From Bacteroidetes bacterium OLB12 (GTDB taxonomy: Bacteria; Bacteroidota; Bacteroidia; Cytophagales; Cyclobacteriaceae), in NCBI GenBank assembly GCA_001567185.1, contig LNFR01000089.1:1-64000 (forward strand): a DNA stretch of 64,000 bases. Reading direction: 5' to 3'. Positions 43,477 through 64,000 of the stretch are shown here, in pieces. The translations under genes were made by a program, and so were the position numbers. The number at the start of each line of letters is the position of its first letter. The first letter of the stretch is position 1. The notes beneath the pieces are model-generated. The model was not told where the DNA came from and made no database searches. It saw nothing but the letters and a program-made list of their open reading frames with translations.

Positions 43477-43529
43477 TTAAAACAGTACTGGTGCTAATGA
43501 CCTACCGACAACCTAAAAGGTTGCACCCC

Positions 43530-44276: not shown

Positions 44277-44302
44277 TATTAAAATATTAATTGAGTTGTA
44301 AG

Positions 44303-45727: not shown

Positions 45728-45811
45728 GAACCTCTCAAAAAGAGGTCAAAGGTAACAGAATAAGCGCAATTTTATCGGCAACCAACCAGGGATATGCGCG
45801 GGATGAACTGG

Positions 45812-46825
45812 CTATTTCTTAATGAAGGTTGGGCACGGTATAAATTTATCTTTCCGTTTTGTCTTTATCTGGGCAGCCATTTCCAACTTGTATTTTACAG
45901 CTACTTCATGTGCCCCGCCCGACATAGGGCCAAGTTCAGATACAGTAAAATCATAACTATAACCCAACTCAATCCGCTCAAATTGAAAGCCCAGCACAAC
46001 CACCATGGCATCCTGGCTAATGTTATCCTTCACATTTTGTTGCAACGGAATACCGCGGTACCACACACCCATCATAATCGGGTCGTACAAAAAGTGAAGC
46101 CCTAAGTCGAGCTGATCGAAATGACCTTGTTTCTTATACACAAAGGAAGGAGCCAGTACAGAAATATGCTCTTTTTTGAATGGACCTCCATAAAGCGGAA
46201 TACGGACTCCTCCATGGAAACTGGTTTTTACTGGCACCTCAGCTTCCTGATCAATCAAGGAACGATTGGGCGTATTTAAATGACTGGCCGAAAAACCAAA
46301 CCAGAAGTTTTTATTGTACGCCAAAACACCTGAATTAAAATCAAAGTAATGTGTATTGCCTAAATTAAATAATGCCTGATCGTCCGTGGGCACATTACCA
46401 TCCGAATCAAACTGAAGTTGATCGCCAAAAATTAATCGGTTCAGATCGATTGAACGCGAAGCATAGCCAAAGTTTAATCCAGCCGAAATCACCCACTTAC
46501 TTAAAACATTCCATTTATAGGAATACAAAAAATTCAATTGAGATGAACGCATGCCCGCAGTGCCAGCCTGATCAACGGTGGCCAGAAAACCAATGCCGCT
46601 ATTATAGTGATTTAGGTTTACATCGTATGAAAACGCATACGTTACAAACCCGTGTGCAGCATTTGGCCACTGATTGCGGTAGTTGGCAATAAACCGGTGA
46701 TCTTCGGAGGTACCCGTAAATGCAGGGTTCAAATATAAAGGTGCAGCATAATACTGAGAAAACTGCGGGTCCTGTGCCAGAAGGTTGGCCGAACAAAATA
46801 TCAATATGAAACAAATTTTTCTCAT
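45812..46825 (-). CDS. PorP/SprF-family type IX secretion outer-membrane protein (second copy)
   Basis: A 337-residue protein with a signal peptide (ICFILIFCSANLLA) and the family signature DPQFSQYYAAPLYLNPAFTG right after it, then a predicted beta barrel (LNFLYSYKWNVLSKWVISAGLNFGYAS, LGFQFERIELGYSYDF). SprF-type proteins are needed for surface delivery of SprB-like adhesins by the type IX system. The ATG overlaps the stop of the 1240-residue PKD adhesin gene as ATGA, so the two are translationally coupled, which suggests a dedicated pair. Confidence 0.9.
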   Translation of the reverse strand: MRKICFILIFCSANLLAQDPQFSQYYAAPLYLNPAFTGTSEDHRFIANYRNQWPNAAHGFVTYAFSYDVNLNHYNSGIGFLATVDQAGTAGMRSSQLNFLYSYKWNVLSKWVISAGLNFGYASRSIDLNRLIFGDQLQFDSDGNVPTDDQALFNLGNTHYFDFNSGVLAYNKNFWFGFSASHLNTPNRSLIDQEAEVPVKTSFHGGVRIPLYGGPFKKEHISVLAPSFVYKKQGHFDQLDLGLHFLYDPIMMGVWYRGIPLQQNVKDNISQDAMVVVLGFQFERIELGYSYDFTVSELGPMSGGAHEVAVKYKLEMAAQIKTKRKDKFIPCPTFIKK

Positions 46826-49800
46826 CGGATCAAATTAACATCGCCTACACGCACCACACGCTCTCCATTTTCAAAGGAAGCTGCCACTTTGTAGATATAT
46901 ACATCTTGCTGACACAGCCGGCCCTGGTAGGTGCCATCCCAGCCGCGTTCCGGATCTTTGCTTTCAAACAACAACTCACCCCAGCGATTAAAAATCAGTA
47001 ACTCAAATTCAGTAACACCCCGCATTACAGGTAAGAAAATATCGTTGGTACCATCACTATTTCCTCCACCACCACCGGTAGCCGAAAGATTGGGTGAAAA
47101 CGCATTCGGTATAAGGACCTGCCCGCCTTTCAGCACACGCACGGCATTCTCCCGACTGGTTGAATCTGCACAATTAAACTGATTGAATGCTGTAAGTTTT
47201 ATGGTGAACAGGCCTTCAGACTGGTAGGAATGATTCGGTTCAAACGCAGTGGAGGTTGTACCATCACCAAAATTCCATAGGTAGGTACTCGCATCAAAAC
47301 TTCTGTTATCGGTGTACATTATACCACCGGGAATATAAACTAAGAGCGGTTTTACTTCAAAGTCGGCCCGTGGTAATGGAAACACTTCAATTATACCAGC
47401 CTTGCTTTCGGTTACAATTTGTCCTGTAATATTGGTTGCCGATAGTGTTACGGAATAAACTCCGGGTTGAAAATAAGTATGTGTTGGACTGGCAGCAGTT
47501 GATGTTGCTCCATCACCAAAATCCCATAAATAGGAATTCGGATCAGCAAATTGCGACAGGTTGGTGAAATTTACCGTTAAGGGCATGCAGCCTTCCGGTG
47601 GATCATAAGAAAAATCTACCAGAGGGGGTATTGCCAATATCTCAACCTGTTGGGCTTGCGTTTCAACACACACATTGTTGGTAACCGTTAACCGGATTGT
47701 ATAAACGCCATACGTACTGTATGTGTGTGAAGTAACATTTGCTGCGGCCGATGTTGTTCCATCGCCAAAGTCCCACAAATAAGTCCACGGCCCCGGGTTG
47801 GTTGTATTGGTAATAGCAACCGTTGATGCCGGCAATGTTTGACTGATGGGTGTTGCTGTAAATCCAGCGTTGATGTTATCTCTGGGAGGCACCGTTATAG
47901 CCTGAGTAGTAACCGCGCTTACACAGTTGGCGAAATTTTCCGTATCCAATCGAAAGTCAACAGCCAGTGCAGGCGAAGCTGCCGGTGGCCGGTTAAATGT
48001 ATGCTCAATAAAATCAACACCTGATGTTTGATCGACAATAGGAATTCCATTTTCATTAATTACCCAATGGTAACTGGTAAGTCCTTTTTGCACAGCATCT
48101 AACCGAACTGTTAATACGTTGCAATCAAAAGCAAGCGTGTCAATTACAAATTGTGAAATCGGTACCGGGCTTATCCGGATTGTGCGGATGGAATCACCAA
48201 AGCAACCTGTGGTTAAAGTAGTTAAAAGTCGTACCGAAAAATTCTTAAGTGCCTGCGTGTTATTTACAAATGCATAACTAAAGGCCGGAGTAGTTCCTGT
48301 GCTGATGTCATCCAACAGGCCGGAGTTGTCACTGATTTGCCATCTGTATTCGGAAGGGTTAAGCGATTGCGTTTCCAGATCAACTGAAAAGTTGATGGTT
48401 TGTGGCGAACAGTTATCGTTAAATGGCGAATAGTTTGTCGAAATGAAACCCGACCGTGTACCCGGAAAAACTGTAATGGTTTGAGAGGGCGAAATAGTTT
48501 CGCAGCCGCCAATGGTAATTACGCGCAGACGCACTTCGAACGTTTTATTTACCAACCCTATGTTTTCAAAATCATGGACAAAAAAAGGTGTGAAGGTTGG
48601 GTCAGTAGGTATTTGTGTACCAATCGGCTGAAAGCCCAGGCCGCCCAATTCATCGACTTCCCATACATAACTACTAATTGCCGTGGGTTGTATAGCTGCA
48701 CCTGTATTATTAAAAGTAACTGTAAGCACGCTACACCCGGAAGTTACATCGGGTGTAAAGGTGGCCACCGGCAGCGGATCAACCACTACCGGAATAATTA
48801 CGGTTTCAGAACACGCAGTTTGGTCGGTCGTAACACGTAAGGCAACCTGGTACGTACCGGCCGGGCCAAGGGCACGATCAAACGTAGTTTGATTATCAAA
48901 TGAAGGATCTTTGGTGAATGTTCCTGTAAAATTGAAGTCCCACTCGCGCAGCACAATAGATTCACCGTTGATTGATTGCAGGGTGGATGCTTCGGCAAAG
49001 GAGGTTAACTGCCCGGCACATACCTGTGTGGCTGTAAATACAGGAACCGGTTTTTCAAACACACGCACCTGCACTTCATCCACCGTTTCACACGAAGTAA
49101 CATTATCGCGTACAATCAGCCGAACCCGGTAAATCCCCCTGTTCAGGTACGATTCATCAAACGGGCCAAGAGCTACATTCGAAAACCCGGAAGTTGGTTC
49201 TTGCTTTACCAACACATTGGTTTGATCATAAAATTCCCAACGCCATTGGGTGGTAGGGGTAATACTTCCTACGGAAGCATCGTTAAACCTAACCTGAAAT
49301 GTTGTAAAAGGTGCCAACGCATTCTGACAAAAATCGGGTGTAATCACATTGTTACTAAGATCCGTTACCTGGATCCGGGCAATTAAAGAAGGAGAAATTG
49401 TGATTACTTTTTCTACAACAGCCACGCAGTTGCCGGCCGCATTTTGATCGCGCACGGAAAGCCGAATGAGTTTTTGGCCCGAGGTAGGATAAGCAAAAGT
49501 GGGGTTGCTATTCGTTGATGTTGCAAGCGGTGCACCGGCCCCGGTATTGTTATCATAAAACTCCCAGGTATAGGCAAAGGAAGCCCCCGAAATATTCGGT
49601 GTTTCGTTATCAAAGTAGATATTATCGCCCACACAAAATATAGTTTGAATGGGGCCACCACTTCCACCCAGCCGGGTTATATAATCCGGTTGAGGCGATG
49701 GAACAATTACAATCCTTGCCGAGGTTATTTGCGGTGCATTATCCCCGTCCACCAGGTTTCCATTAACCGGATTGAAGGGATTCAAATCCGTGAGCACATT

Positions 49801-50544
49801 ATCATATGGATTACACTGGTTCCAGTTCTTAAGCGTAATCACAAACTCGCGGCCTAAATCGGCAGGAGTTGTAACCGGCACCTGAATGGGCAAACTTACC
49901 TGCCCCGGAGCTAATACCGGGTAAATAGGGTTAGTGGCCGGAGCTGGATTAAGGTAAGGAAATCCGCCTGGAGTAATTGAATTTACCTGGATGCCCGGAA
50001 TCTGGTTTCCTAAGGGGCCCGTTCCATACAGCCATTGAATCCAGCGTGGTTCATTATTCTCGCGTGTTGCCCGCGGAAAACAATTCCAGGAACTGTTATC
50101 GGTAAACTGTACGCTGGCCGCATAGCCCTGGCAAACCCTGTAAACGGCAGGGTCAATCGAAATCACATCGTTAGTCCATACAATAACCTGTGTATTGATG
50201 GGCACCACACTGCCGCGCGGGTTACATGCGTTTGCTGCATCAATCACCACATCATACCCGCAATTGGTGGATGTGTTGGGATAGGTATGCGCTATTGTTA
50301 CGCCTGTTGCGTTGGTCTGCGTGTAGGTTTCTTCACCTGTTCCATCGCCCCAATTAATAAAATACTGGGTGCCTGGCGCAGATGACAGATAAAGGGTTTG
50401 AATATTAACTGTAAAGGGCGCGCAACCCCGGCTACTGGTTAAAAACGCAAAACCAGGTTCCAGAATATTCGGGCACTGCGAAAACGCAGGCTTCGAAATA
50501 AAAATAATAAACAGTAATACAAGAAGAGTAAGCTTACGCACCAT
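46822..50544 (-). CDS. PKD-repeat surface protein with type IX type-B sorting domain
   Basis: A 1240-residue exported protein: signal peptide (LTLLVLLFIIFISKPAFS), then about a dozen Ig-like/PKD units, the clearest having NWGDGTGEETYT, YLWDFGDGTTSAA and YLWNFGDGTTSTA. The last about 95 residues are a type-B C-terminal domain (VLIPNAFSPNLS, TNDIFLPVMRGVTEFELLIFNRWGELLF, RGWDGTYQGRLCQQDVYIYKV), as in gliding adhesins. Probably displayed on the surface by the SprF-like partner encoded directly after it. It is 154 bases downstream of the first SprF-like gene. Confidence 0.9.
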   Translation of the reverse strand: MVRKLTLLVLLFIIFISKPAFSQCPNILEPGFAFLTSSRGCAPFTVNIQTLYLSSAPGTQYFINWGDGTGEETYTQTNATGVTIAHTYPNTSTNCGYDVVIDAANACNPRGSVVPINTQVIVWTNDVISIDPAVYRVCQGYAASVQFTDNSSWNCFPRATRENNEPRWIQWLYGTGPLGNQIPGIQVNSITPGGFPYLNPAPATNPIYPVLAPGQVSLPIQVPVTTPADLGREFVITLKNWNQCNPYDNVLTDLNPFNPVNGNLVDGDNAPQITSARIVIVPSPQPDYITRLGGSGGPIQTIFCVGDNIYFDNETPNISGASFAYTWEFYDNNTGAGAPLATSTNSNPTFAYPTSGQKLIRLSVRDQNAAGNCVAVVEKVITISPSLIARIQVTDLSNNVITPDFCQNALAPFTTFQVRFNDASVGSITPTTQWRWEFYDQTNVLVKQEPTSGFSNVALGPFDESYLNRGIYRVRLIVRDNVTSCETVDEVQVRVFEKPVPVFTATQVCAGQLTSFAEASTLQSINGESIVLREWDFNFTGTFTKDPSFDNQTTFDRALGPAGTYQVALRVTTDQTACSETVIIPVVVDPLPVATFTPDVTSGCSVLTVTFNNTGAAIQPTAISSYVWEVDELGGLGFQPIGTQIPTDPTFTPFFVHDFENIGLVNKTFEVRLRVITIGGCETISPSQTITVFPGTRSGFISTNYSPFNDNCSPQTINFSVDLETQSLNPSEYRWQISDNSGLLDDISTGTTPAFSYAFVNNTQALKNFSVRLLTTLTTGCFGDSIRTIRISPVPISQFVIDTLAFDCNVLTVRLDAVQKGLTSYHWVINENGIPIVDQTSGVDFIEHTFNRPPAASPALAVDFRLDTENFANCVSAVTTQAITVPPRDNINAGFTATPISQTLPASTVAITNTTNPGPWTYLWDFGDGTTSAAANVTSHTYSTYGVYTIRLTVTNNVCVETQAQQVEILAIPPLVDFSYDPPEGCMPLTVNFTNLSQFADPNSYLWDFGDGATSTAASPTHTYFQPGVYSVTLSATNITGQIVTESKAGIIEVFPLPRADFEVKPLLVYIPGGIMYTDNRSFDASTYLWNFGDGTTSTAFEPNHSYQSEGLFTIKLTAFNQFNCADSTSRENAVRVLKGGQVLIPNAFSPNLSATGGGGGNSDGTNDIFLPVMRGVTEFELLIFNRWGELLFESKDPERGWDGTYQGRLCQQDVYIYKVAASFENGERVVRVGDVNLIR

Positions 50545-50698
50545 GCCTTAAACAGATAAATTCCATTTAAAGCCACCTGTAGACTGCTTTTAATACATTC
50601 TAACATCTGGAACGGATGTAAAAACAAAAAATTGACCATAACCGGCTATTACAACCGGCTAATCACATCTGTACAGGTTAAACAGTAGTTACCAGGTT

Positions 50699-51727
50699 TT
50701 AATTACTCCAGAACGACTTCTTGGTATTGAAGGTAGGACAAGGGATAAGCCGGTTGCGTTTCTTTACCCCCCGATGTACGGGTTTGGCCACAAATTCATA
50801 TACAATTGATATTTCGTGCGCTCCACCCGAACTGGTTGATAATTCAGAAATAGAAAAATCATAGCTATAGCCTACTACAAAATCTTTCAGATAAAGGCCC
50901 AGCGTAAGAATGAGTGCATCCTGGTTTACCGTGCCAATTACGTTTTTCTCAAATGGTTTTCCCCTATACCAGGCCCCAACCGATACGGGGTCAATATGGT
51001 AGTTCAATCCAAAATCCAATTGACTGATGGGACCTTGTCTTCTATAAATGAATGAGGGTGTAAGGTACGAGGCCCGGTCCATTTCGCGTGGACCATCCAT
51101 TAACGTAATACGCGCTCCACCGTGTATCGTGGTTTTCATCGGAACACGGCTTACATCATTCAAAATGGAAACATTGGGTGTATTCATGTGTGTGAACGAA
51201 GCCCCAACCCATAAACTACGGTTATAAATAATAAAGCCCGATCCGAAATCAAAATATTGTTGATTACCCAACTTATTCAATTCCGGATCGAGGGAAATTC
51301 CATCATACTCTAACCCATCGCCTAATCGTAACCTGCTTCTGTCAAGACCATTGATACCGTAACCAAAATACAAACCTGGTGAAAACACTACTTTATTGGT
51401 TAGCCGCACTTTGTAACTATAGTTTAATCCCACAGTAGTAGTACGCCATCCGGCCGAACCCATTTTATCGGTAGTAGCCAGAATTCCAAATCCACTTCGT
51501 AGTTCGTCCACAAAAATATCGTAGCTGGCCGAGTAGGTTGAAAATGCCTGCGGCAGATTAGGCCATTGAATGCGATGGTTAATAGCCACCCGTTGCTGGG
51601 GGGTAATTCCTGTAAACCCGGGATTAAGGTAAAGCGGTGCCTGATAGTATTGCGAGAATTGCGGATCCTGCGCAAGCGTCTCTGCTCCTATCATTAAACC
51701 AAACACAATCAATAAAATCTTCTTCAT
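50699..51727 (-). CDS. PorP/SprF-family type IX secretion outer-membrane protein (first copy)
   Basis: A 342-residue protein with a signal peptide (KKILLIVFGLMIGAETLA) and the family signature DPQFSQYYQAPLYLNPGFTG, followed by a barrel (LNYSYKVRLTNKVVFSPGLYFGYG, LTLGLYLKDFVVGYSYDFS). It is closely similar to the second copy in length and order of blocks. It begins 22 bases after the giant adhesin stop, so it is likely co-transcribed as that protein's SprF. Confidence 0.9.
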   Translation of the reverse strand: MKKILLIVFGLMIGAETLAQDPQFSQYYQAPLYLNPGFTGITPQQRVAINHRIQWPNLPQAFSTYSASYDIFVDELRSGFGILATTDKMGSAGWRTTTVGLNYSYKVRLTNKVVFSPGLYFGYGINGLDRSRLRLGDGLEYDGISLDPELNKLGNQQYFDFGSGFIIYNRSLWVGASFTHMNTPNVSILNDVSRVPMKTTIHGGARITLMDGPREMDRASYLTPSFIYRRQGPISQLDFGLNYHIDPVSVGAWYRGKPFEKNVIGTVNQDALILTLGLYLKDFVVGYSYDFSISELSTSSGGAHEISIVYEFVAKPVHRGVKKRNRLIPCPTFNTKKSFWSN

Positions 51728-51749
51728 GCTTTATTCGTTATAGCATTCT

Positions 51750-54700
51750 TTATTTGATCATTGTTACATCCCCAATCTGCGTAGATCGCTGCCCATCGGA
51801 TAACCGGATAGTAAGCTTATACACATAAACACCGGCTGGTAGTGTTCTGCCATTTTTATCGTAACCATCCCAACCAATGTTGGCACTGTTACTTTCAAAG
51901 ATCAGATTACCCCAGCGATCGAAAATCTGCATATTAAATTCTTCGGCACCTTTTACAATCGGCAAGAATACATCGTTAAACGTTCCGTTACCACCTGTAC
52001 CTCCACCGCTTCCCGATCCTGGGCCGGCCGGGTTAGGTGTAAAGGCATTCGGTACTTTTGTTATACCACCCTGTTTCGCTGTTACCTTGCGGGTAAGGGT
52101 ATCGGTACACAACAAGCCACCCCCATGATCGTTGATGGCCACCAACTGCACATCATACACACCCTCAACACGATACGTATAAACCGGTTCAATTTCATCG
52201 GAGGTACCGCCATCACCAAAATCCCAGGCGTAATCTGTAGCACCCATACTAAAGTTAAAGGTGGTCATCTCGGTATTGGGAACATACACCACGTTTGGTC
52301 TCAAATCAAACGAAGCAAGCGGGTTGTCAAAGATCTCGAAATTATCGCGCTGGGTATTGGCAACCTGCCCTGTAATAGAGTTACGGGTAGTAAGAAGCAC
52401 AGAATATACGCCAGGCGCAGTAATCCTGAATATTGGCATCGGAGCGCTGGAGGTGGCCGCAATGCGACCGTTACTATCCACCACACGCCATTCCATAATA
52501 TCGCCTGTCGAGGTGTTTTCTGTTACTTCAATATCAGCCGGGAAGCAAGCACGCAACGGGTTAGCCTCAAACGCAGCAACAAGTGGCAACAACTGAATAT
52601 TAATGGTTTTACTGAATGAGCTTTCGCAACCCATACCAGCAGTTTCAGCTGCAATATTTACTACGCGTAACGAAATATCTCGAGGACCCGGTGTACTGTA
52701 ATCCACAGAGAATGGACCAGCACCGGTGGCTGTGGCCGGAGTAGCATTCAATCCAAAGTTCCATTCGTACCGGAATTGCGAAGGATCTACCGGAGTAGAT
52801 GTATTGGTAAAGTTTACGGTTGCATTACCCCCAATAAACGGAGGCACAGTACCTTCATCAAATCCTGCCACAATATCACGATACACGGTTATTGGCATTA
52901 CCACATCAGCTGCCGGGCAGAATCCATTATTAGCCTGATAAACCACTTCGTAAATAATAGGATTGGTAGTGGATGTATTTACCAGGTTGTAATTAACCGT
53001 AGGGGTTGTACGAACATCAATTTCTGCCGTAGTGCCTTGCTCGCGATAGAACCAGCGATGCGTAGTTGCACCAAAACTCTGGTTAAAGAACTGAACATTC
53101 TCCCCGCTACAAATGTCGGTCCTATCCGGGAACGCATTCGTAATGATAGAAGGGAAAATGGTAATGTTCTGCTGCATAGACTTAAAGCAACCCGGGAACG
53201 GAGCCGGTAACTGCGTGCGCAAGGTCACCTTATACGTTATCGGTGCATTTGGATTCGGGTTAGAGAATGTATGCGTAATGGTATTGTTCGGAATGGTAGA
53301 TGCAGCCAGGAATACATCATCCGGTGAACCATCAAACCATTGCCATGTATATTCTGTGCCAGCTACCTGGTTAAACTGGAAGGTAGCTGTGTACGGACCG
53401 CACGAGGAAGCGGGGCCAACCACACTAAACGTGGCATCCGTCTCTCCTACCGTTACTGTAACACTCTGCCCAACCGGAGTAAACGGACAGTTCAACGCAT
53501 CCTCTACTGAAACCAGTGTGTAGGTGGTAGTGGCTGTTGGTGTTACGGGTATCACCTTAAAGTTTCCGGCATTGGTTACCGAAATATTGGAGGTACCATC
53601 GTTGTACACAAAATCAAACGGTGCCTGTCCATCCAACTGAATGATCAGGAACTCTGTACTACCCTTACAAATGCTTGAATTTGTATTCACAAACTGCGCT
53701 CCCATTTGCGGAGAAACGGTTACGATTAGAATCTTAGGATCGCCCAAACAGTTACCCGGACCAGTTGGTGTAATGGTATAGGTTAATGAAGCCTGCGAAC
53801 CGGTTGTATTATTCAATAACTGGTTAATCGTACTACCCGAACCGGTTAATGGCACTCCCAATCCGCTTGGATCGTCAACCGTCCAGGCAAAAGTGGTACC
53901 GGCCACATTGCTTACCAGCGGCACGTTAAGTGTGTTTCCATGACACACCGTTACCGGAGGCGGCAAGGTTAATACAGGTTTAGGATTAACCACAACAGGT
54001 ATAACAATAGCAGGGCCATCGCAACCATTTACCCTTGGTGTTACTGTATAGGTTACTGTAGATGCTGAATTATTATTGTTGAATAATGTCTGGAAGATCA
54101 GGTTACCCGCTCCATTGCTGGCACCCGCCACACCCGGAGGTGCGGATACAGTCCACACTGCAACGGTATTGGCCACATCTGGCGTAAGGGTAATGTTGAT
54201 GAATTCACCACTGCAGATATCAGCCTGCGGGCTGGCTACCACCGTAGGCAATGGATTAACTGTAATAGTTACCACTACATTATCGCCCTGACAACCCAAG
54301 CCTCCTGCTGTTTGTGGCCGGAAGGTGTAGGTTACAGTCTGTGATGTGGTTGTTGGATTATCCAACACATCAGCTAAGGTAGCACCTGGAGTAAAGATTG
54401 TGCCAACAGCCGACATACCCGTTACACCACCTGTGGCAACCGCGCTCAACAATTCAAATTCAGTAGTACCTGCTGAAGGAACGGTTGCACTATTTAAAGT
54501 AACATTGGTAGCCACTCCTTCGCATACAGTTTGAATAAGTGGTGAAGCAACCAGTTTGGGTTTAGGTTCAACGGTTACTACAACCTGCACTGCCGGAGGT
54601 AAGCTTGAACAACCGCCTCCATTTTTAGCACCATTGGCTACTGCGGTTATCGAGTAAGTAACTGTAGCAGGTGCATCATCGTTGTTTACCAAAACATCTG

Positions 54701-57700
54701 CAATCTTGTAATTCTCCGGCAGGTTGCTCAAAACCGGAACAAAGCCGCTCACCAAACCTCCTGCGGAAGAAACCGCAGTATAGTTAAAGGTAATCACCCC
54801 GGCTGTAGGATTGGTAGGTGAAATCAAGTCGATATCGGTGGTACCGTTGCTACAAATTACCGGTGCATTGTTAACCGGAGCTGCAATTACTTCAGGTTCT
54901 ACTGTTAGCACCACATTTCTTACCGGGCCCAGACAGGATGCGCCCGAAACTGCTTGTACGCCATACGTAACTGTTAATGGATCGTTGGTAGGGTTCTGGA
55001 ATTGATCGGCCTGAATATCATTTGCCGAAACTCCATTGCGTGGTACCACTGCGTTTCCGGCAGTTCTTACTAAACCGGCCTGTGCGCTAATCGATACAAT
55101 ATTGTACGAAGCGGCCGCAACACTCAAGGGCGAAATCTCGGTGGCAAAGACAATACCGCTTGCTTCATCCGAACATACCGTCCGGTTAAGGTTATCTTCT
55201 ACCGCAGGTGCCGGGTTAACAGTAAATACGACTGTAAAGTCAGCACCACGACATCCATTAGCAATAGGCACTACGGTATAGGTAACCAACAACGGACCGT
55301 TGGTGGTATTGGTGAATACATCATTTGCCAGAAAATCAGACTGACCACCCGGCAAGTTTGCTACATAACTTCCTAAACCTGCATTGCTGCCACCTGCTAC
55401 CAGCGCTGGTGCTTTCACTATATTCTTCAACTCAAAATCTGTGATGGGTGTAGAACCTGCCGCAGGCCCAACAATAATACCCGAAGGAACATCGCTACAC
55501 AGATTGGCCGTGCCTGGCGACAGGATTGGCTGCGGATCAATTGTCAAATTGATGGCTTGTGGTTGACCCTCGCAATTGGAAGGGCTAATACCCACCACGA
55601 AATAGGTTACTACAACAGGTGCATTTGTTGTGTTCGTGTATTTATCGGTGCGGATCAGGTTGATATTACCCACCGTTCCTGCAGGTACGTTCAACGGATC
55701 GGCAGTAACCGTTCCGGGCACTGTTACACTTACTAACCTGTAAGAATTAGCAGCCACGGAAACACCGTTTGTACTTAGAATGATACCCGCGTCTTCACGG
55801 CTGCAAACCGTATTATCCAAACCAGGGTTTATAACCGGCTCAGGATTTACGGTGAGTTCAACCACTTTCGGATCGCCTACGCATCCGTTAGTTCCATTCG
55901 GTGTAATGGTATAAGTAACTTTTAATGGAATAGCGCCTACGTTTACGAAGGCATCATTAATCAACGCATTAGCGGCAAGACCTGATCCGGTGGTTGGTGT
56001 ACCGGTTAAGCCAGCATCAACAACAGCAGAAACATCATAGGTGGAAGCACCTATTGAAACGCCATCGGTATCCATCAAGGTATTATAAGGTGCCTGGCTA
56101 CATACAATCGCATTGAGCGAACTTGATACCACAGGTTCCGGATCAATTGGAACGGTAATGGTAAATGGATCGCCCACGCAAGTTCCTGCAGTTGGAGTAA
56201 CCACGTAGGTCGCATTCAACACTACATTGGAAGTATTGGTTAATGTACCGCTGATGTTACCGCTACCGGATACAGGAGGCGCTGCTCCACCTACGGTAAG
56301 ACCAGGCTGATAAGTAGCCGTCCACGTAAAGGTTGCAATCACACCGTTTGTAATGTCTGCCTGCGGATCGAAGTTAAACAAGACATCCGAACAGGTAGGT
56401 GCTTTGGTTGCATCGGCACCAACAGGTTTAGAGCTGATCGTTACCGCATACGTAAACGGTGTTCCGGCACAATTATGTGCAGTACTAAATGGTGTAATGG
56501 TGTAGGTAATGGTTACATCAACTCCTGTAGAGTTGGTATAGGAATCTGTAATAGGTGCACCACTGGCTACTATGCGATCGGCCGCAGGCGGAACGCCCAC
56601 CGGATCGGAAGAAGCTACCGTATAGGTAAACACACTAGGCACGGCATTGCCCAACATATTAATGTTTTGCGTTTGAATATTATAATTCAACGCTGTGCTA
56701 CATACCGGATCAACCACATTGGCCCCCACGGGCTCCGGATGTACTATTACTTTAAACGTGAATGAAGCACCTTCGCAATCATCGGCAAGACTTACCGGTG
56801 TTACGGTATAGGTAATTTCAACATCGGCATTCGTGGTATTGGTGTACACATCTGCAATCGGAGCCGGAGTTGGCGTATTGCGATTTGGACCCGGTGCCAC
56901 GGCCAATGCATTATTCGAAGATACCGTATATCTGAACTTACTTGGAACGGCATTTCCTGTGCCTACCGTATTAATCACATTTTGTAAATCGAAATTAACC
57001 GGATCATCGCTGCACCGTTGAATGGTCATATCCGGACCAAGTGGTTCCGGATGAATAGTAACCACCACATCAAATGGATTACCCTGGCAATTTCCGGTAA
57101 TACTGAATGGTGTAATCGTATAGGTAATCAGTACATCCGCACTGGTGGTGTTAGTATAGGTATCGGTAATCGATGCTGCACTGGCCACCGTTCTGTCTTT
57201 GCCCGCAGCTGAAACATTGCCCGGATCGGATGACACCACGGTGTAAGTGAATTGGCTGTTAACCGAATTTCCTAACAGGTTGATGTTTCTGGTTTGGATA
57301 TTATAACTGATGGCTTCATCGCTACATACTGCATCGGTATCGGCTGCTCCGATTGGCTGCGGACGAACCGTAACTGAAACTGTAAACGGATTACCCTCGC
57401 ATCCGTCTGTACTGGTAGGTACAACGGTGTAAACTACTACCTGGTTGGCCGATGTTACATTCGTAAGTACATCTGTAATTGTACCCGTGTTGGTTGCCAC
57501 AAGGGTTTCACCGGTTACGTTGGTATTATCTGCGGCCTGCCACTCGTAGGTCGTACCTGCAACTAAGTTGTTTCCACCTGCTCCGGTATTGGCAATATTT
57601 GCAGAAAGTACATAGTTCACATTTGCGTTACTACAAATAACGGGCGATACATCGTTGAACCCTCTTGGCTCCGGACGAACGGTTATTGAAACTGTAAACG

Positions 57701-60700
57701 GATCGCCCACGCAACCATTGTTGGTTGGTGTAATGGTATATACCACAATCTGATTTACATTGGTAACGTTATTCAGCACATCGGTGATGATATTTCCCGA
57801 TTGCGCAGAAAGGCTTTCACCACTCACACTCGCATGCGATGCTGCAATCCAGCTATAGGTAGTTCCTGTAACCAGATTATTACCACCCGAACCGGTATTG
57901 GCAATGTTCGTGTTTAAGTCATAACCCACCACATCATCGCTACAGATAATTGGTGAGCTATCGTTAAATCCGCGCGGTTCCGGATGCACCGTTACCGAAA
58001 CGGTGAAAGGATCGCCCACACAACCATTGTTACTGGTTGCCGTAACCGTATAAACCACTACCTGATCTACGTCTGTAACATTATTCAACACATCATTAAT
58101 AGTAACGGAAGTACCCGGAGTTACGTCTGATTCACCACTTACATCCGGATGTGTAGCCGCAATCCAACTGTAGGTAGTTCCAATAAGCAGGTTATTACCG
58201 CCTAATCCGGTATTGGCAATATTGGAAGCGATATTATAATTCACATTGGCATCGCTGCAAATTGTTTTCGCATCATCAAATCCGCGTGGTTCTGGCCGCA
58301 CGGTTACTGACACCAGGAAGGTATTTCCTACACAACTATTGGCACTGGTTGGGGTAACGGTATATACCACCACCTGATTGGTATTGGTGATGTTATTCAA
58401 CGCATCGGTAATGGTATCACCTGTTTGTGCAACAAGGCTTTCTCCTGATACATTAGGATTATCGGTGGCAATCCATGAATAGGTTGTACCGGTAACCAGG
58501 TTATTACCCCCGGAACCTGTATTAGCCACATTCGCATTTAAGTTATAACCCACCACATCATCGCTGCATACCACCGGAGTAGCGTCATTAAAGCCTCGCG
58601 GCTCAGGCTGTACCGTTACCGATACAGTAAATGGATTACCCACACAACTACCATTGGTTGGGGTTACGGTGTAAACCACCACCTGATTAGTGTTGGTTAC
58701 GTTATTAATGATATCGGTAATGATTGATCCCGTTCCACTACCCTCACCTGTTACAAAAGCATTTGCAGTAGCTACCCAACTGTAGGTGGTTCCTGCTGTC
58801 AGGTTATTACCTCCTGCACCTGTGTTGGCAATGTTTAACGCTAAATCATAATTAAAGGCTACATCGCTGCAAGCCAAAGGCGAAGGATCGTTGAACCCAC
58901 GAGGCTCCGGACGTACTGTTACGGAAACGGTAAACGGATCGCCCACACAACCATCGGAACTGGTAGGTGTGATGGTGTACACTACTACCTGATCTATATT
59001 GGTTACGTTGTTTACTACATCGGTTATCATTGAGGTTGTTCCGGCAATGATGGTTGACTCACCGGTTACGTCAGGATTATCCGCTGCAATCCAACTGTAG
59101 GTTGTACCGGTTACCAGGTTATTACCTCCTGCGCCTGTATTGGCAATGTTATTAACCAGGTTGTAGTTAATAGCTACATCGCTGCATACTACCGGGGTAA
59201 TATCATTAAATCCGCGTGGTTCTGGTCGTACGGTAACCGACACAGTAAATGGATTACCCACACAACTACCATTGGTTGGGGTTACGGTGTAAACCACCAC
59301 CTGGTTGGAATTAGTTACGTTATTTAAAACATCCGTAATGTTGGATCCGCTTTGTGCCACTGTACTTTCACCGGTTACATTGGTGTTATCTGCGGCTATC
59401 CAGCTAAAGGTTGTACCGGTAATCAGGTTATTACCACCCATACCCGTATTGCCCACATTAAGCACCAGGTCGTAATTCACATTATCATCGCTACAAATGG
59501 TTTTAGTATCATTAAAGCCTTGTGGTTCTGGTCTTACTGTAACGGATACTGTAAACGGATTACCCACACATCCATTAAGACTGGTTGGCGTTACCGTGTA
59601 GATAACCACCTGATCTGAATTTGTTACATTATTCAACACATCGGTTATCATTGCGCCTGCCTGAGGCGTAGTGCTCTCACCCCCTACACTACCATTCGAT
59701 GCGGCTACCCAGCTGTAGGTTGTTCCCGTAATCAGATTGTTACCACCGGAACCCGTATTAGCCACATTGGCACTTAAATCATAATTAACAGTTTGATCGC
59801 TGCAAATTGAGGGAGGATTATCATTAAAGCCTTGAGGTTCTGGTCTTACCGTAACTGTAACCGTAAACGGATCGCCCACGCAACCATTGATACTGGTTGG
59901 TGTAACTGTATAAACAACCGGCTGATTAATATTAGTTGTATTGGTGATGGTATTTGTAATGAGGCTTCCGGACTGCGCGGAGGTGCTCTCGCCTGTTACA
60001 AACGGATTATCTGCGGCAACCCAACTATAGGTTGTACCCACCACCAGGCTGTTTCCACCCAGTCCCACATTCGAGATATTGGCTACGAGATCGTAGCTCA
60101 TCGCTACATCGCTGCACACAACCGGGCTGCTGTCATCAAACCCTCTAGGTTCAGGTCTTACATTGATTGAAACCGTAAACGGATTACCCACGCAACCAGC
60201 ACTACTGGTTGGTGTAACGGTATATACAACCACCTGGGTGGAATTGGTTATGTTATTCAACACATCATTGATCACACTTCCTGTTTGAGGAGTTGTGCTT
60301 TCACCCGACACATTGGTATTGCTGGTAGCAACCCAGCTATACGTGGTTCCGCCAATCAGATTATTTCCGCCTGAACCGGTATTCGCTATGTTGGCACTGA
60401 GGTCGTAGTTAACATTTGCGTCACTGCAAATAAACGGAGTTGCATCATTGAATCCACGTGGTTCCGGTTGCACGGTAACCGATACCGTAAATGAATTACC
60501 TACGCAACTATTGTTGGTAGGTGTTACGGTATAAACCACCACCTGATTGACATTGGTTACGTTATTCAGAACATCAGTAATTGTAGCACCTGCTTGTGGT
60601 AACAGGCTTTCACCACTTACGTTTGTATTGCTTGCCGCAATCCAACTGAACGTGGTTCCGGTAGTAAGATTATTGCCACCCAAACCCACATTGGCCACAT

Positions 60701-63700
60701 TGGCCACTAAATCATAAGCAACCGCATCATCGCTACAAATAGTAGCCACATCATTGAAACCTCTTGGCTCCGGCCGGATGGTTACGGAAATCGTAAATGG
60801 ATCACCCACACAACCATCGCTACTGGTAGGGGTTACGGTATAGTCAACCACCTGATCCACTGCGGTTACGTTATTCACCACATCCGATATGGTGCTGCCC
60901 GATTGGGCCGTTAAACTTTCACCGGTTACGAAGGTATTATCAGTTGCAATCCAACTGTACGTGGTACCAATGGCCAGGTTATTACCTCCCAACCCTGTAT
61001 TGGTGATATTGGAAACAAGGTTATAATTGACCGGTGCATCGCTGCACACCACCGGGCTGGAGTCGTTGTAACCACGGGGTTCCGGACGTACGGTTACCGA
61101 AACGGTAAATGGATCGCCCACGCAACCATCGGTACTGGTGGGTGTAACCGTATAAACAACCACCTGGTTTGCATTGGTAACATTGTTCAATACATCGTTG
61201 ATGATGTTACCCGTTTGTGGTGTGGTGCTTTCTCCAGAAACGGTAGCGCTGGCGGCAGCTACCCAACTGTATGTAGTGCCAGCAATCAGGTTGTTGCCTC
61301 CTAATCCTATATTGGCAATGTTGGCGTTCAGGTCATAAGCCAGCGCCACATCACTGCACGTGAACGGTGTGGCATCGTTATAGCCTTTCGGCTCGGGTTG
61401 CACGGTTACAGAAACACTGAATGGATTTCCTACGCAACCATCCGAACTTGTGGGAGTAACGGTATAAACTACAACCTGGTTAGAATTGGTAATGTTGTTC
61501 AATACATCGGTAATGGTAGCTCCTGTTTGTGTAGAGGTACTTTCGCCCGACACATTGCTGTTTGCTGCTGCCGACCAGCTATAGGTTGTACCAGCTGTCA
61601 GGTTATTTCCTCCGGAAACAGTATTAGCAATATTGGCACTTAACGAATAGTTAACGGAAGCATCGCTACAGATAATAGCGGTGTCATCAAAACCCTTAGG
61701 TTCAGGCCTTACCGTTACGGATACCGTAAATGGATCGCCCACACACCCATTGGAACTTGTAGGTGTTACCGTATAAACTACTACCTGATTGGTGTTGGTA
61801 ATGTTGTTCAATACATCTGTTATGATGGATGTAGTACCACTTCCTTCTCCGGTAACATCGGCATGCGGTGCGGCAACCCAGGCATAGGTAGTTCCGCTAA
61901 TCAACCCGTTTCCTCCCAAACCGGTATTCAGAATATTCGATTCCAGGTTGTAATTAACGGCTGCGTCACTACAAATAAGAGGTGTTGCATCGTTATAGCC
62001 ACGGGGTTCTGGCCGCACTGTTACCGAAACGGTGAATGGATCGCCCACGCAACCATTGTTGGTAGGTGTAACCGTATAAACCACCACCTGATTGCTGTTG
62101 GTGATATTGTTTAATGCATCGGTAATAATTGAACCCGCCTGAGGTGTGGTGCTTTCCCCGCTCACATTTGGATTAGAGGCCGCCAACCAACTATAGGTGG
62201 TACCCGTAACTAAGTTATTTCCACCTGCACCGGTATTACCAATATTGGAAGCCAGGTTATAGTTAACAACGTCATCGCTACAAATCAGCGGGCTTGTGTC
62301 ATTAAAGCCTCTGGGCTCAGGTTGTACCGTAATCCCAACCGTGAAGGGCGCTCCTACGCATCCTGCACTGCTGGTTGGTGTAATGGTATATTGAACCACC
62401 TGATTTGCAGCGGTAATATTGGTTATAACATCGGTAATAATTTTGCCGGTTTGAGGCGTTGTACTTTCTCCGGTTACAAACCCATTGGCAGTTGCCACCC
62501 AGCTATAGGTAGTACCCGCAACCAAGTTGTTGCCACCAGCCCCGGTGTTGGCAATGTTGGCCTCCAGGTCATACCCAGCCGCCACGTCACTACACGTTAA
62601 AGGGGTATTGTCTGTATGCCCTACCGGTTGTGGATTTACTGTAATGACAATTGTTTCTGCTGCCCCAGAGCAGCTAGCTCCACTGGTAGGGGTTATTACA
62701 TAATTAACAACAAGAGGCGTATTTGTAAGGTTGGTTAAGATGTCGTTGATGTGGATTGTACCCGCAACTCCCATGGGGATATTAACACCCGCAGTGGCAG
62801 GCCCGGCACCATCCGGATCGGGCCAATTAAAGAGCGTACCGGCAGGAAGATTAGCCGGAGCCAACAATATTTCTTTAGCCACCGCTGCGCCACTACAAAT
62901 TGTTTTAGCCTGGTTTGCCTGCACAACCGGCTGCGGATTTACCGTAACCGTAAAGTTTTGCGGTGTACCCGGGCAATTATCAGGTGCCGGTCCTATTGGG
63001 GTTATGCGGTACGTTACGGTGGCATTAACTCCTGAGGTATTAAATAATGTCTGATTAATATTTGTTACTCCATTGGCTAAATCACCCAGGATAGCGCCAA
63101 TGACAGAACCCGTTACATTAATAACTTCCCAGTTGTAGGTTGTTCCGGCAATGTTCGAGGTTATGGTGTGGGCCACCGAAAGATTTGTTCCACTACACAC
63201 AATACTGGATGGAGCCGAGGTAATGGTTGGTCTGTTTACCACCGTTACCGGGAATGGTACTGCTGCAGGCGATGTACACCCTGTACCACTGGCATGGGTT
63301 ACAGTTACATTCCCACTAAAAGTACTCATCTGCACCGTAATTGAACTGGCCGTAACCGGAAGTGATGTAATGGTTGCACCTGCCGGAAGCGACCAGCTAT
63401 AGGTACCTGCTACCGGGTTACTTACACTAAATACTACCCCATTCTCATTTGAACAAACAGAGCTGGGTCCTGTAATTATTGGTTGCGGAGGTGAGCCCTC
63501 CACGATTATTCTTGTACTGATAGTATTACCATCACAAAGGGCTGTGCCCAGTGTTTCCATTACGGAAATAGGTACCCCGGTAGGATATAGTGTTCCGGTA
63601 CCTGGAACCGGATTAGGGAAGCGAAGAATAATAAAGAACCCGGTGGTTGACGATAATAATTCAAACTCACCGGCATACGATGGCGGTGGTACCGTCCATG

Positions 63701-64000
63701 TATAGGTGGAGCCCGGGTTCAGGCCAGGATTAATTTGTAATAACACCAGGTTTGAACTGGCACATATCGTATAAGATGCACCCAACGTCTGACCAATACC
63801 ATCCGTAATCTGGTTGTCAACAGGCCGGGCCTGGTAATCCAGATTAAGGGTTGCTGCACTAAAACATTGTGGTGAAGGTAACGTGGTGTCGATTACCTTG
63901 GCATGCAGCGTAACATCGGCATTGATTGTATAATTCTGCTCTGCTCCAACTGCCATACCGGGAGGAATCAGGAAGGCCGCACCCAGGCTGGCATCGGTGT
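51750..64000 (-). CDS. Giant SprB-like tandem-repeat adhesin with type-B sorting domain (N-terminus outside window)
   Basis: At least 4,083 residues; the frame is open to the right edge (before the Met at 63956 it reads TDASLGAAFLIPPG). Order from the N-terminal side: a few Ig/PKD-like domains (63956-62640); 17 near-identical units of about 103 residues (62630-57350) with NYNLxxNIANTGxGGNNL, GTTYSWxAAxN, VSGES, ITDxLNNxTNxNQVVVYTVTPT and GCVGDPFTVSVTVRPEP; three diverged units (57350-56430); about ten more distant ones to 53740; a cluster ending in PKD (YAWDFGDGGTS); and a type-B CTD (KVPNAFTPNPAGPG, FNDVFLPIVKGAEEF, DRWGNLIFES, LPAGVYVYKL). Very likely a gliding or attachment filament. Partner: the SprF-like gene 22 bases downstream. 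Confidence 0.92.
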   Translation of the reverse strand, partial: TDASLGAAFLIPPGMAVGAEQNYTINADVTLHAKVIDTTLPSPQCFSAATLNLDYQARPVDNQITDGIGQTLGASYTICASSNLVLLQINPGLNPGSTYTWTVPPPSYAGEFELLSSTTGFFIILRFPNPVPGTGTLYPTGVPISVMETLGTALCDGNTISTRIIVEGSPPQPIITGPSSVCSNENGVVFSVSNPVAGTYSWSLPAGATITSLPVTASSITVQMSTFSGNVTVTHASGTGCTSPAAVPFPVTVVNRPTITSAPSSIVCSGTNLSVAHTITSNIAGTTYNWEVINVTGSVIGAILGDLANGVTNINQTLFNTSGVNATVTYRITPIGPAPDNCPGTPQNFTVTVNPQPVVQANQAKTICSGAAVAKEILLAPANLPAGTLFNWPDPDGAGPATAGVNIPMGVAGTIHINDILTNLTNTPLVVNYVITPTSGASCSGAAETIVITVNPQPVGHTDNTPLTCSDVAAGYDLEANIANTGAGGNNLVAGTTYSWVATANGFVTGESTTPQTGKIITDVITNITAANQVVQYTITPTSSAGCVGAPFTVGITVQPEPRGFNDTSPLICSDDVVNYNLASNIGNTGAGGNNLVTGTTYSWLAASNPNVSGESTTPQAGSIITDALNNITNSNQVVVYTVTPTNNGCVGDPFTVSVTVRPEPRGYNDATPLICSDAAVNYNLESNILNTGLGGNGLISGTTYAWVAAPHADVTGEGSGTTSIITDVLNNITNTNQVVVYTVTPTSSNGCVGDPFTVSVTVRPEPKGFDDTAIICSDASVNYSLSANIANTVSGGNNLTAGTTYSWSAAANSNVSGESTSTQTGATITDVLNNITNSNQVVVYTVTPTSSDGCVGNPFSVSVTVQPEPKGYNDATPFTCSDVALAYDLNANIANIGLGGNNLIAGTTYSWVAAASATVSGESTTPQTGNIINDVLNNVTNANQVVVYTVTPTSTDGCVGDPFTVSVTVRPEPRGYNDSSPVVCSDAPVNYNLVSNITNTGLGGNNLAIGTTYSWIATDNTFVTGESLTAQSGSTISDVVNNVTAVDQVVDYTVTPTSSDGCVGDPFTISVTIRPEPRGFNDVATICSDDAVAYDLVANVANVGLGGNNLTTGTTFSWIAASNTNVSGESLLPQAGATITDVLNNVTNVNQVVVYTVTPTNNSCVGNSFTVSVTVQPEPRGFNDATPFICSDANVNYDLSANIANTGSGGNNLIGGTTYSWVATSNTNVSGESTTPQTGSVINDVLNNITNSTQVVVYTVTPTSSAGCVGNPFTVSINVRPEPRGFDDSSPVVCSDVAMSYDLVANISNVGLGGNSLVVGTTYSWVAADNPFVTGESTSAQSGSLITNTITNTTNINQPVVYTVTPTSINGCVGDPFTVTVTVRPEPQGFNDNPPSICSDQTVNYDLSANVANTGSGGNNLITGTTYSWVAASNGSVGGESTTPQAGAMITDVLNNVTNSDQVVIYTVTPTSLNGCVGNPFTVSVTVRPEPQGFNDTKTICSDDNVNYDLVLNVGNTGMGGNNLITGTTFSWIAADNTNVTGESTVAQSGSNITDVLNNVTNSNQVVVYTVTPTNGSCVGNPFTVSVTVRPEPRGFNDITPVVCSDVAINYNLVNNIANTGAGGNNLVTGTTYSWIAADNPDVTGESTIIAGTTSMITDVVNNVTNIDQVVVYTITPTSSDGCVGDPFTVSVTVRPEPRGFNDPSPLACSDVAFNYDLALNIANTGAGGNNLTAGTTYSWVATANAFVTGEGSGTGSIITDIINNVTNTNQVVVYTVTPTNGSCVGNPFTVSVTVQPEPRGFNDATPVVCSDDVVGYNLNANVANTGSGGNNLVTGTTYSWIATDNPNVSGESLVAQTGDTITDALNNITNTNQVVVYTVTPTSANSCVGNTFLVSVTVRPEPRGFDDAKTICSDANVNYNIASNIANTGLGGNNLLIGTTYSWIAATHPDVSGESDVTPGTSVTINDVLNNVTDVDQVVVYTVTATSNNGCVGDPFTVSVTVHPEPRGFNDSSPIICSDDVVGYDLNTNIANTGSGGNNLVTGTTYSWIAASHASVSGESLSAQSGNIITDVLNNVTNVNQIVVYTITPTNNGCVGDPFTVSITVRPEPRGFNDVSPVICSNANVNYVLSANIANTGAGGNNLVAGTTYEWQAADNTNVTGETLVATNTGTITDVLTNVTSANQVVVYTVVPTSTDGCEGNPFTVSVTVRPQPIGAADTDAVCSDEAISYNIQTRNINLLGNSVNSQFTYTVVSSDPGNVSAAGKDRTVASAASITDTYTNTTSADVLITYTITPFSITGNCQGNPFDVVVTIHPEPLGPDMTIQRCSDDPVNFDLQNVINTVGTGNAVPSKFRYTVSSNNALAVAPGPNRNTPTPAPIADVYTNTTNADVEITYTVTPVSLADDCEGASFTFKVIVHPEPVGANVVDPVCSTALNYNIQTQNINMLGNAVPSVFTYTVASSDPVGVPPAADRIVASGAPITDSYTNSTGVDVTITYTITPFSTAHNCAGTPFTYAVTISSKPVGADATKAPTCSDVLFNFDPQADITNGVIATFTWTATYQPGLTVGGAAPPVSGSGNISGTLTNTSNVVLNATYVVTPTAGTCVGDPFTITVPIDPEPVVSSSLNAIVCSQAPYNTLMDTDGVSIGASTYDVSAVVDAGLTGTPTTGSGLAANALINDAFVNVGAIPLKVTYTITPNGTNGCVGDPKVVELTVNPEPVINPGLDNTVCSREDAGIILSTNGVSVAANSYRLVSVTVPGTVTADPLNVPAGTVGNINLIRTDKYTNTTNAPVVVTYFVVGISPSNCEGQPQAINLTIDPQPILSPGTANLCSDVPSGIIVGPAAGSTPITDFELKNIVKAPALVAGGSNAGLGSYVANLPGGQSDFLANDVFTNTTNGPLLVTYTVVPIANGCRGADFTVVFTVNPAPAVEDNLNRTVCSDEASGIVFATEISPLSVAAASYNIVSISAQAGLVRTAGNAVVPRNGVSANDIQADQFQNPTNDPLTVTYGVQAVSGASCLGPVRNVVLTVEPEVIAAPVNNAPVICSNGTTDIDLISPTNPTAGVITFNYTAVSSAGGLVSGFVPVLSNLPENYKIADVLVNNDDAPATVTYSITAVANGAKNGGGCSSLPPAVQVVVTVEPKPKLVASPLIQTVCEGVATNVTLNSATVPSAGTTEFELLSAVATGGVTGMSAVGTIFTPGATLADVLDNPTTTSQTVTYTFRPQTAGGLGCQGDNVVVTITVNPLPTVVASPQADICSGEFINITLTPDVANTVAVWTVSAPPGVAGASNGAGNLIFQTLFNNNNSASTVTYTVTPRVNGCDGPAIVIPVVVNPKPVLTLPPPVTVCHGNTLNVPLVSNVAGTTFAWTVDDPSGLGVPLTGSGSTINQLLNNTTGSQASLTYTITPTGPGNCLGDPKILIVTVSPQMGAQFVNTNSSICKGSTEFLIIQLDGQAPFDFVYNDGTSNISVTNAGNFKVIPVTPTATTTYTLVSVEDALNCPFTPVGQSVTVTVGETDATFSVVGPASSCGPYTATFQFNQVAGTEYTWQWFDGSPDDVFLAASTIPNNTITHTFSNPNPNAPITYKVTLRTQLPAPFPGCFKSMQQNITIFPSIITNAFPDRTDICSGENVQFFNQSFGATTHRWFYREQGTTAEIDVRTTPTVNYNLVNTSTTNPIIYEVVYQANNGFCPAADVVMPITVYRDIVAGFDEGTVPPFIGGNATVNFTNTSTPVDPSQFRYEWNFGLNATPATATGAGPFSVDYSTPGPRDISLRVVNIAAETAGMGCESSFSKTINIQLLPLVAAFEANPLRACFPADIEVTENTSTGDIMEWRVVDSNGRIAATSSAPMPIFRITAPGVYSVLLTTRNSITGQVANTQRDNFEIFDNPLASFDLRPNVVYVPNTEMTTFNFSMGATDYAWDFGDGGTSDEIEPVYTYRVEGVYDVQLVAINDHGGGLLCTDTLTRKVTAKQGGITKVPNAFTPNPAGPGSGSGGGTGGNGTFNDVFLPIVKGAEEFNMQIFDRWGNLIFESNSANIGWDGYDKNGRTLPAGVYVYKLTIRLSDGQRSTQIGDVTMIK
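57350..62630 (-). repeat. Array of 17 tandem coding repeats, about 309 bp each
   Basis: The motif (E/Q)P-(R/K/Q)-G-(F/Y)-(N/D)-D recurs at about 57660, 57970, 58278, 58590, 58894, 59210, 59515, 59826, 60140, 60449, 60757, 61070, 61380, 61689, 61998 and 62305, with end points at 57350 and 62613: spacing is regular. Every unit has two cysteines, in CS(D/N) and (G/S)C(V/E)G. Copies differ mostly at third codon positions and at a few residues. Confidence 0.9.

Follow-up and report, generated by a model that had tools for sequence, protein, structure and literature searches.

Two adjacent Type B adhesin/carrier modules in a Cyclobacteriaceae bacterium and their matched inheritance in related species

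Organization of the Locus

The window considered here, a stretch of 64,000 nucleotides from Bacteroidetes bacterium OLB12 (contig LNFR01000089.1, positions 1 to 64,000), carries two type IX secretion system (T9SS) modules lying head to tail on the minus strand, whose open reading frames (ORFs) encode, in order, a giant adhesin, a PorP/SprF-family carrier (SprF1), an adhesin with PKD domains (adhesin 2), and a second carrier (SprF2). An initial annotation had described tandem adhesin/SprF modules at this place, and the ORFs, their order, and their families are as it claimed. The features are as follows:

51750..64000, minus strand: 3' part of the giant adhesin gene, module 1 cargo (ORF; runs on to the contig end)
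51771..51980, minus strand: Type B sorting domain CTD1 (CHU_C) of the giant adhesin (profile, cut-off 27 bits)
50699..51727, minus strand: SprF1, PorP/SprF-family carrier of module 1, 342 aa (profiles and tree)
50738..50740, minus strand: codon of Cys330 in SprF1, sole cysteine of the C-tail, LIPCPTF (alignment)
50545..50698, minus strand: inter-module gap of 154 bases between adhesin 2 and SprF1
46822..50544, minus strand: adhesin 2, module 2 cargo, 1240 aa, with PKD domains (signal peptide by eye)
46870..47061, minus strand: Type B sorting domain CTD2 (CHU_C) of adhesin 2 (profile, cut-off 27 bits)
45812..46825, minus strand: SprF2, PorP/SprF-family carrier of module 2, 337 aa (profiles and tree)
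45833..45835, minus strand: codon of Cys331 in SprF2, sole cysteine of the C-tail, FIPCPTF

The giant adhesin ends at 51750 and SprF1 begins at 51727, leaving the 22-base gap first annotated; likewise, adhesin 2 has the 1240 residues and PKD domains ascribed to it, and its gene overlaps that of SprF2 by the four bases ATGA. A giant adhesin of more than 4,000 residues had been proposed, and the open frame is indeed 4328 aa long, reaching the contig end (64738) without a start. An ATG at 63956 was considered as the start and rejected, as the frame stays open to the contig end. Over its residues 7-260 this frame aligns at 83% with positions 1165-1416 of a relative's protein that includes its start (L141); because the alignment begins at residue 1165, this one close relative suggests that about 1,160 residues are missing and that the full protein may be near 5,490 aa. 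Giant-adhesin open frames in six relatives (G140-G145) measure 5,498-5,551 aa, and that of Cyclobacteriaceae bacterium SSA6 (G139) measures 4,398 aa, its upstream part being in pieces with undetermined bases. Upstream of the locus in the relative L141 lies a CTP synthase gene, on the opposite strand.

Pfam recognizes 29 PKD_5 stretches in the giant adhesin. Counting gave 25 units that are 97-108 aa long, every one of them with two cysteines and no more. Mean identity between neighbouring units is 56% at the residue level and 61% at the base level, and Tandem Repeats Finder found no repeats in the in-window part of the gene. In a comparison with five relatives, counted from the C-terminal end, units are best matched at the same place in 21 of 22 cases for L017, 7 of 18 for L021, and 3 of 16 for L023, counts that would also drop after one insertion shifting the units; L027 and L044 have 0 and 1 unit of 97-108 aa, too few for this comparison.

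Promoter- and terminator-like sites were at chance level. Over the whole window a Bacteroidota promoter pattern had 3 matches vs. 3.56 expected; within 45600-51900 the counts were 13 vs. 12.6 and 9 vs. 7.7, and in the inter-module region such sites were no commoner than in shuffles. A separate observation concerns the CCA-adding enzyme gene (44303-45683), which in relatives is one ORF of about 468-494 aa. In the window it is split between two frames of 330 aa and 150 aa that overlap, through an error in the sequence or a genuine disruption of the gene.

Family Assignments and Host Genome

Both carriers belong to the PorP/SprF family according to PF11751 (SprF2 230 bits, SprF1 213 bits, cut-off 22.3; positions 4-273 of the 273-position profile covered) and TIGR03519 (SprF2 250 bits, SprF1 240 bits, cut-off 90.55; 7-291 or 1-292 of 292 covered). 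Comparison of SprF1 with the PDB sequences gave no match up to E 1. That both adhesins end in a Type B sorting domain holds as well: CHU_C (PF13585, cut-off 27) scores 39.6-43.7 bits in adhesin 2 and 44.7-50 bits in the giant adhesin, and TIGR04131 (cut-off 35) is exceeded by adhesin 2 at 38.1 and narrowly missed by the giant adhesin at 32.7.

Judged by SprF1 (99% identical), the closest named record is the SSA6 chromosome. In the genome that holds the window, 10 PorP/SprF matches are spread over 8 loci, two loci being split into two matches each, and there are 16 CHU_C matches. Four gld/spr genes were looked for in it. SprA (2352 bits), GldH (102.6 bits), and GldK (419 bits) are over their cut-offs, and GldJ is over the cut-off for the GldJ_short model (604) and under it for the longer GldJ model (330.9 vs. 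458.2). The GldH profile also matches in 1 of 14 control genomes, and GldH is therefore no proof of gliding.

Conservation of the Adhesin-Carrier Pairing

Scanning named genomes with SprF1 yielded 61 loci besides the window. In 60 of these a CTD1-type adhesin gene precedes the carrier, and the 61st match begins at a contig edge. Complete modules 1 and 2 stand next to each other in 24 loci; in 3 others adhesin 2 begins and the contig then ends; 17 pass from SprF1 straight to cca; and another 17 have neither module 2 nor a nearby cca within the stretch examined, L037 having a cca start at its far end. This arrangement of modules is more than chance. In the family set, from which loci L077-L080 were omitted as repeats of others and carriers of <250 aa, >700 aa, or <60 bits were left out, the nearest neighbour by a script rule is a CTD gene for 125 of 127 carriers (upstream and in the same orientation for 120, divergent for 5); one of the other two has a neighbour with a weak CTD score only, and the other begins at a contig edge. 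That relatives fail to preserve the pairing is contradicted by the loci examined. At five loci (L166, L169, L178, L179, and L217), two PorP/SprF genes were seen in direct tandem with no adhesin between them.

Module 2 was followed through 28 genomes that we chose from those behind the 61 named loci, under a presence cut of our own setting (SprF2 at 61% identity or more; adhesin 2 matched over most of its length). An SprF2 orthologue (61-96% identity; next best matches 48% or less) is present in 14 of the 28, and an adhesin-2 orthologue (47-97% identity) in the same 14. Adhesin-2 matches outside the cut are C-terminal only, and absence of adhesin 2 in 8 of the 14 negative genomes rests on 24 scored candidates. 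With one presence label for both genes, since they occur in the same 14 genomes, module 2 presence requires at least 5 changes on the SprF1 tree; the 5 independent pairs give a sign-test value of 0.0625, where 5 pairs cannot reach 0.05. Three genomes (L147, L148, and L149), those of Dawidia soli, Parachryseolinea silvisoli, and SZAS-70, carry modules 1 and 2 on separate contigs, with the two genes of module 2 still adjacent. Some 3 kb past the module 2 pair of Parachryseolinea comes cca, so that there module 1, rather than module 2, may be the one that moved.

Matched Carrier and Sorting-Domain Lineages

The 127 carriers, taken from the window, the named loci, and the family-level loci, were reduced to 123 distinct ones by merging identical carriers and leaving out L100, which has no neighbour, and two FastTree trees were built, one from the carriers and one from the last 90 residues of each carrier's neighbour. 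A PorP/SprF tree had been proposed as a check on the pairing; run across these 123 carrier/sorting-domain pairs, it places each window carrier with one sorting-domain lineage. The SprF1 side comprises 71 rows (support 0.985), which are the same 71 in the sorting-domain tree (0.882); the SprF2 side comprises 28 rows (0.991), again the same 28 (0.619), within which an inner group of 26 (0.999) recurs as the same 26 sorting domains (0.974). Deeper SprF2 groups fit the CTD tree less well, with best overlaps of 0.88 (32 rows), 0.76 (37), and 0.79 (39), and the largest SprF1 group (73 rows, poor support of 0.345) differs from it by 2 rows. Among the 123 pairs, no lineage-1 carrier stands beside a lineage-2 sorting domain, nor the reverse. 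The two sorting domains of the window, CTD1 and CTD2, share 45% identity, and the values across the 25 two-module loci are 43-57%.

Lineage-2 adhesins are 1232-1275 aa long in 28 of 28 cases. Lineage-1 adhesins that are complete in their locus (16 of 71) range from 1606 to 3212 aa, that of L159 has 4463 aa, and open frames reach 5,628 aa (G147) and 6,056 aa (G151). Given this spread, from 1,606 to 6,056 aa, the carrier follows the sorting domain and not the size of the adhesin. The initial annotation had stressed that the two carriers sit beside very different adhesins, which is right for the passengers, but it is the sorting domain that the carrier goes with.

Distances within the 19 of 25 two-module loci that also have cca were compared by partial correlation given cca distance, as a correction for species history. 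The cognate values were 0.777 (SprF1-CTD1) and 0.627 (SprF2-CTD2), against non-cognate values of 0.646 (SprF1-CTD2) and 0.430 (SprF2-CTD1), and cognate exceeded non-cognate in 96.7% of bootstraps, a weak test on 19 genomes. This co-variation is weak, as the non-cognate SprF1-CTD2 value (0.646) is higher than the cognate SprF2-CTD2 value (0.627).

Comparison with Known Systems

The locus resembles SprB-SprF of Flavobacterium johnsoniae in having a giant adhesin with a Type B CTD, a PorP/SprF carrier gene directly downstream, a cysteine in the carrier C-tail, and gld/spr genes in the genome. Unlike SprB-SprF, the window tails have one cysteine (PCPTF) rather than Cys-X-Cys (CxC), and a second pair follows at once. 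Other F. johnsoniae Type B pairs, such as Fjoh_3952-Fjoh_3951(-3950, PorE-like), share the order of adhesin then own shuttle and the presence of several pairs per genome; in contrast, the window's two pairs are in direct tandem, and no PorE-like gene was found beside them. In Porphyromonas gingivalis, PG1035-PorP-PorE likewise joins a Type B CTD protein to a PorP-family partner, with binding reported for PG1035, but it is a single pair in a non-gliding organism, with a proposed static anchor through PorE.

Export and Carrier Specificity

Dedicated carriers for Type B cargo are a published principle and not new. Type B CTDs of F. johnsoniae need cognate PorP/SprF shuttles (PMC12618676), and SprF is reported bound to SprB and PorP bound to PG1035 (PMC9143113). 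The locus is a new, well-conserved instance of this known cargo/carrier system; the present addition is the continued matching of the two pairs across the relatives sampled. No report of SprB-related adhesins of Cyclobacteriaceae was found in the literature searched.

The families, gene order, co-inheritance, and matched trees were established here, and for physical pairing and export we infer from F. johnsoniae. By that analogy, each adhesin would be exported through Sec, its C-terminal CHU_C domain would take it through the SprA translocon, and the outer-membrane carrier encoded just downstream would take it from the translocon and stay bound to it as a surface anchor. The two pairs would represent an old duplication, since kept matched. 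Two surface filaments in one locus, also suggested initially, are conjectural. We regard it as probable that the locus consists of two adjacent Type B T9SS cargo/carrier cassettes that stayed matched and place both adhesins on the gliding track.

Two other explanations bear on the matching itself. The suggestion made initially that each carrier is specific to its own cargo gains from the one sorting-domain lineage of each carrier and from a second pair that is found, missed, or relocated together; this is co-inheritance and not proof, since neighbouring genes are co-inherited anyway and matched trees do not by themselves prove specificity. The concordance could accordingly reflect linkage only, the cassette moving or disappearing as a single DNA segment without any functional match between its partners, and the adjacency of partners for 125 of 127 carriers means that joint loss needs just one deletion. 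We consider this unlikely, as 25 loci with side-by-side paralogous modules offer easy recombination between partners and none is mixed, cognate distances correlate better after cca distance is removed, though weakly, and the principle is biochemically demonstrated in F. johnsoniae, as reported (PMC12618676). Alternatively, the carriers might overlap, either one collecting either adhesin, so that the duplication would provide dose rather than specificity. Sharing is possible given the 45% identity of CTD1 and CTD2 (43-57% in the 25 loci) and the range of sharing and non-sharing described for F. johnsoniae, where three orphan CTDs with more than 44% shared use one shuttle, and where the shuttle of a 68% relative served in cross-talk and none did at 43% or 26% (PMC12618676); moreover, 16 CHU_C matches against about 8 carrier loci in the genome suggest that some carriers may be shared. 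The absence of mixed lineage-1/lineage-2 partners among 123 pairs, the co-occurrence of SprF2 and adhesin 2 in the same 14 of 28 genomes, and the reported failure of the 43% relative's shuttle (PMC12618676) argue against such overlap, which we hold to be improbable. The locus offers a natural test bed for carrier specificity, in which pairs lie side by side at 45% identity, where the F. johnsoniae data cannot predict cross-talk; some relatives carry the second pair, and in the rest it was not found.

The Tail Cysteine and the Gliding Track

The Pro-Cys-Pro of the carrier tail (P329-C330-P331) is invariant in 25 of 25 aligned carriers, and exactly one cysteine is present in the last 45 residues of all 127 family-set carriers. 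In a slightly different family set, with carriers truncated at the end left out, 122 of 123 distinct carriers have one tail cysteine, the exception being frame-broken with none. Among 85 class-level carriers, 29 have one cysteine in the last 45 residues, 52 have two, 3 have three, and 1 has none. The CxC tail motif of SprF-type gliding carriers is present in neither window carrier, each having one cysteine, and in none of the 85 class-level carriers, a sample picked by likeness to SprF1 from part of the listed matches (including sets of 40 and 20 stretches); given that choice, and since several members are like the paralogue beside gldJ, the F. johnsoniae-type SprF may lie outside it. Four other carriers of the window's own genome have no tail cysteine as read, one of them (L013) being frame-broken before the tail.

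In F. johnsoniae, according to the one source on a twin-cysteine SprF found in the literature searched, the SprF C-tail has a Cys-X-Cys that is invariant in close homologues, Cys326 of SprF bonds Cys343 of GldK, and both tail cysteines are needed for gliding, a C324A variant having formed few GldK links; P. gingivalis PorG has a single such tail cysteine (PMC12635249). GldK of the present genome has a cysteine (Cys255) that aligns with PorK Cys356 (chain 9mzu_A), and the six ORFs downstream of the modules (41698-45683), one of which is without any family, contain no PorE/OmpA domain. As no tested neighbour is PorE-like, the carriers keep a single tail cysteine, and GldK keeps the cysteine to which SprF or PorG is bonded in other species, the most likely course would be that both adhesins ride the gliding track via an SprF-GldK disulfide.

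Two points count against this step: F. johnsoniae needs both tail cysteines and these carriers have one, and Dawidia, in which both modules are found with carriers that end in the same way as those of the window, is described as non-motile, in a paper that nonetheless carries the keyword 'Gliding bacteria' (PMC9296434). The adhesins might instead be held still, serving adhesion and not gliding, with another role for the tail cysteine. Besides the single cysteine in place of CxC and the described non-motility of Dawidia (PMC9296434), such an arrangement would fit the C-tail cysteines in class-level carriers with no adjoining giant adhesin, which are thus no mark of SprB carriers alone; yet the six ORFs include no PorE-like neighbour, in contrast to the static class of F. 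johnsoniae, the genome encodes SprA, GldH, GldJ, and GldK, and the partner cysteine of GldK is kept, so that we judge static adhesins rather unlikely. For track-bound adhesins, we advance tentatively, at somewhat less than even confidence, that SprF-type carriers of this family link adhesins to the moving GldK track by a single tail cysteine, with the donor-disulfide step being a local refinement and another oxidant making the bond. The second SprF cysteine of F. johnsoniae is thought, in the published account, to be needed as donor or resolving thiol (PMC12635249). If the single-cysteine link is true, one track would be loaded by the two carriers with two different adhesins, the first of about 5,500 aa and the second of 1,240 aa. 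A large set of related carriers lacks the twin cysteine reported for SprF of F. johnsoniae, and the proposed role of the second cysteine could be tested in cultured relatives (Chryseolinea, Ohtaekwangia, and Fulvivirga).

Other PorP/SprF-Family Genes

In ten class-level genomes (L163, L165, L171, L172, L174, L175, L177, L180, L181, and L182), a Cys-tailed carrier was seen between divergent porU-like and gldJ-like genes. In L163 the PorU profile is over its cut-off and GldJ just under (451 vs. 458.2), in L171 GldJ is over, and in the others these neighbours were judged by eye.

A PorP-family barrel followed by a SPOR domain was seen in one ORF of 527 aa (L076:16969-18552) and at L014:6993-8415, where the SPOR domain is in the second of two pieces; a 545-aa carrier (L071:15025-16662) with the same end is a candidate for a further case. 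As read from its domains, a PorP-SPOR protein could be a one-protein static anchor. Used as a query, it found matches in 8 of 60 family genomes at E 1e-40 that cover the barrel part only, and the fusion is thus not demonstrated as widespread. In the literature searched, PorP, SPOR, and type IX secretion are named together in one paper, on gut S24-7 genomes.

Within the window's own genome, a tail-less carrier is located upstream of a CHU_C adhesin with a 2-base gap, the reverse of the usual order (L012:276-5965), and another carrier of 421 aa (L015:7037-8302) has a C-terminal extension which, on visual inspection, resembles the beginning of an OmpA-type domain and has no Pfam match there. A third, divergently placed carrier/adhesin pair is on contig C43 (L013:5461-11625), with both partners frame-broken, as they are in SSA6 (L158); the adhesin ORFs measure 930+813 aa and 932+813 aa in the two genomes. 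The third pair of L150 and L151 consists of single ORFs, with carriers of 398 and 372 aa, adhesins of 1760 and 1753 aa, and the carrier tail IPCPDF.
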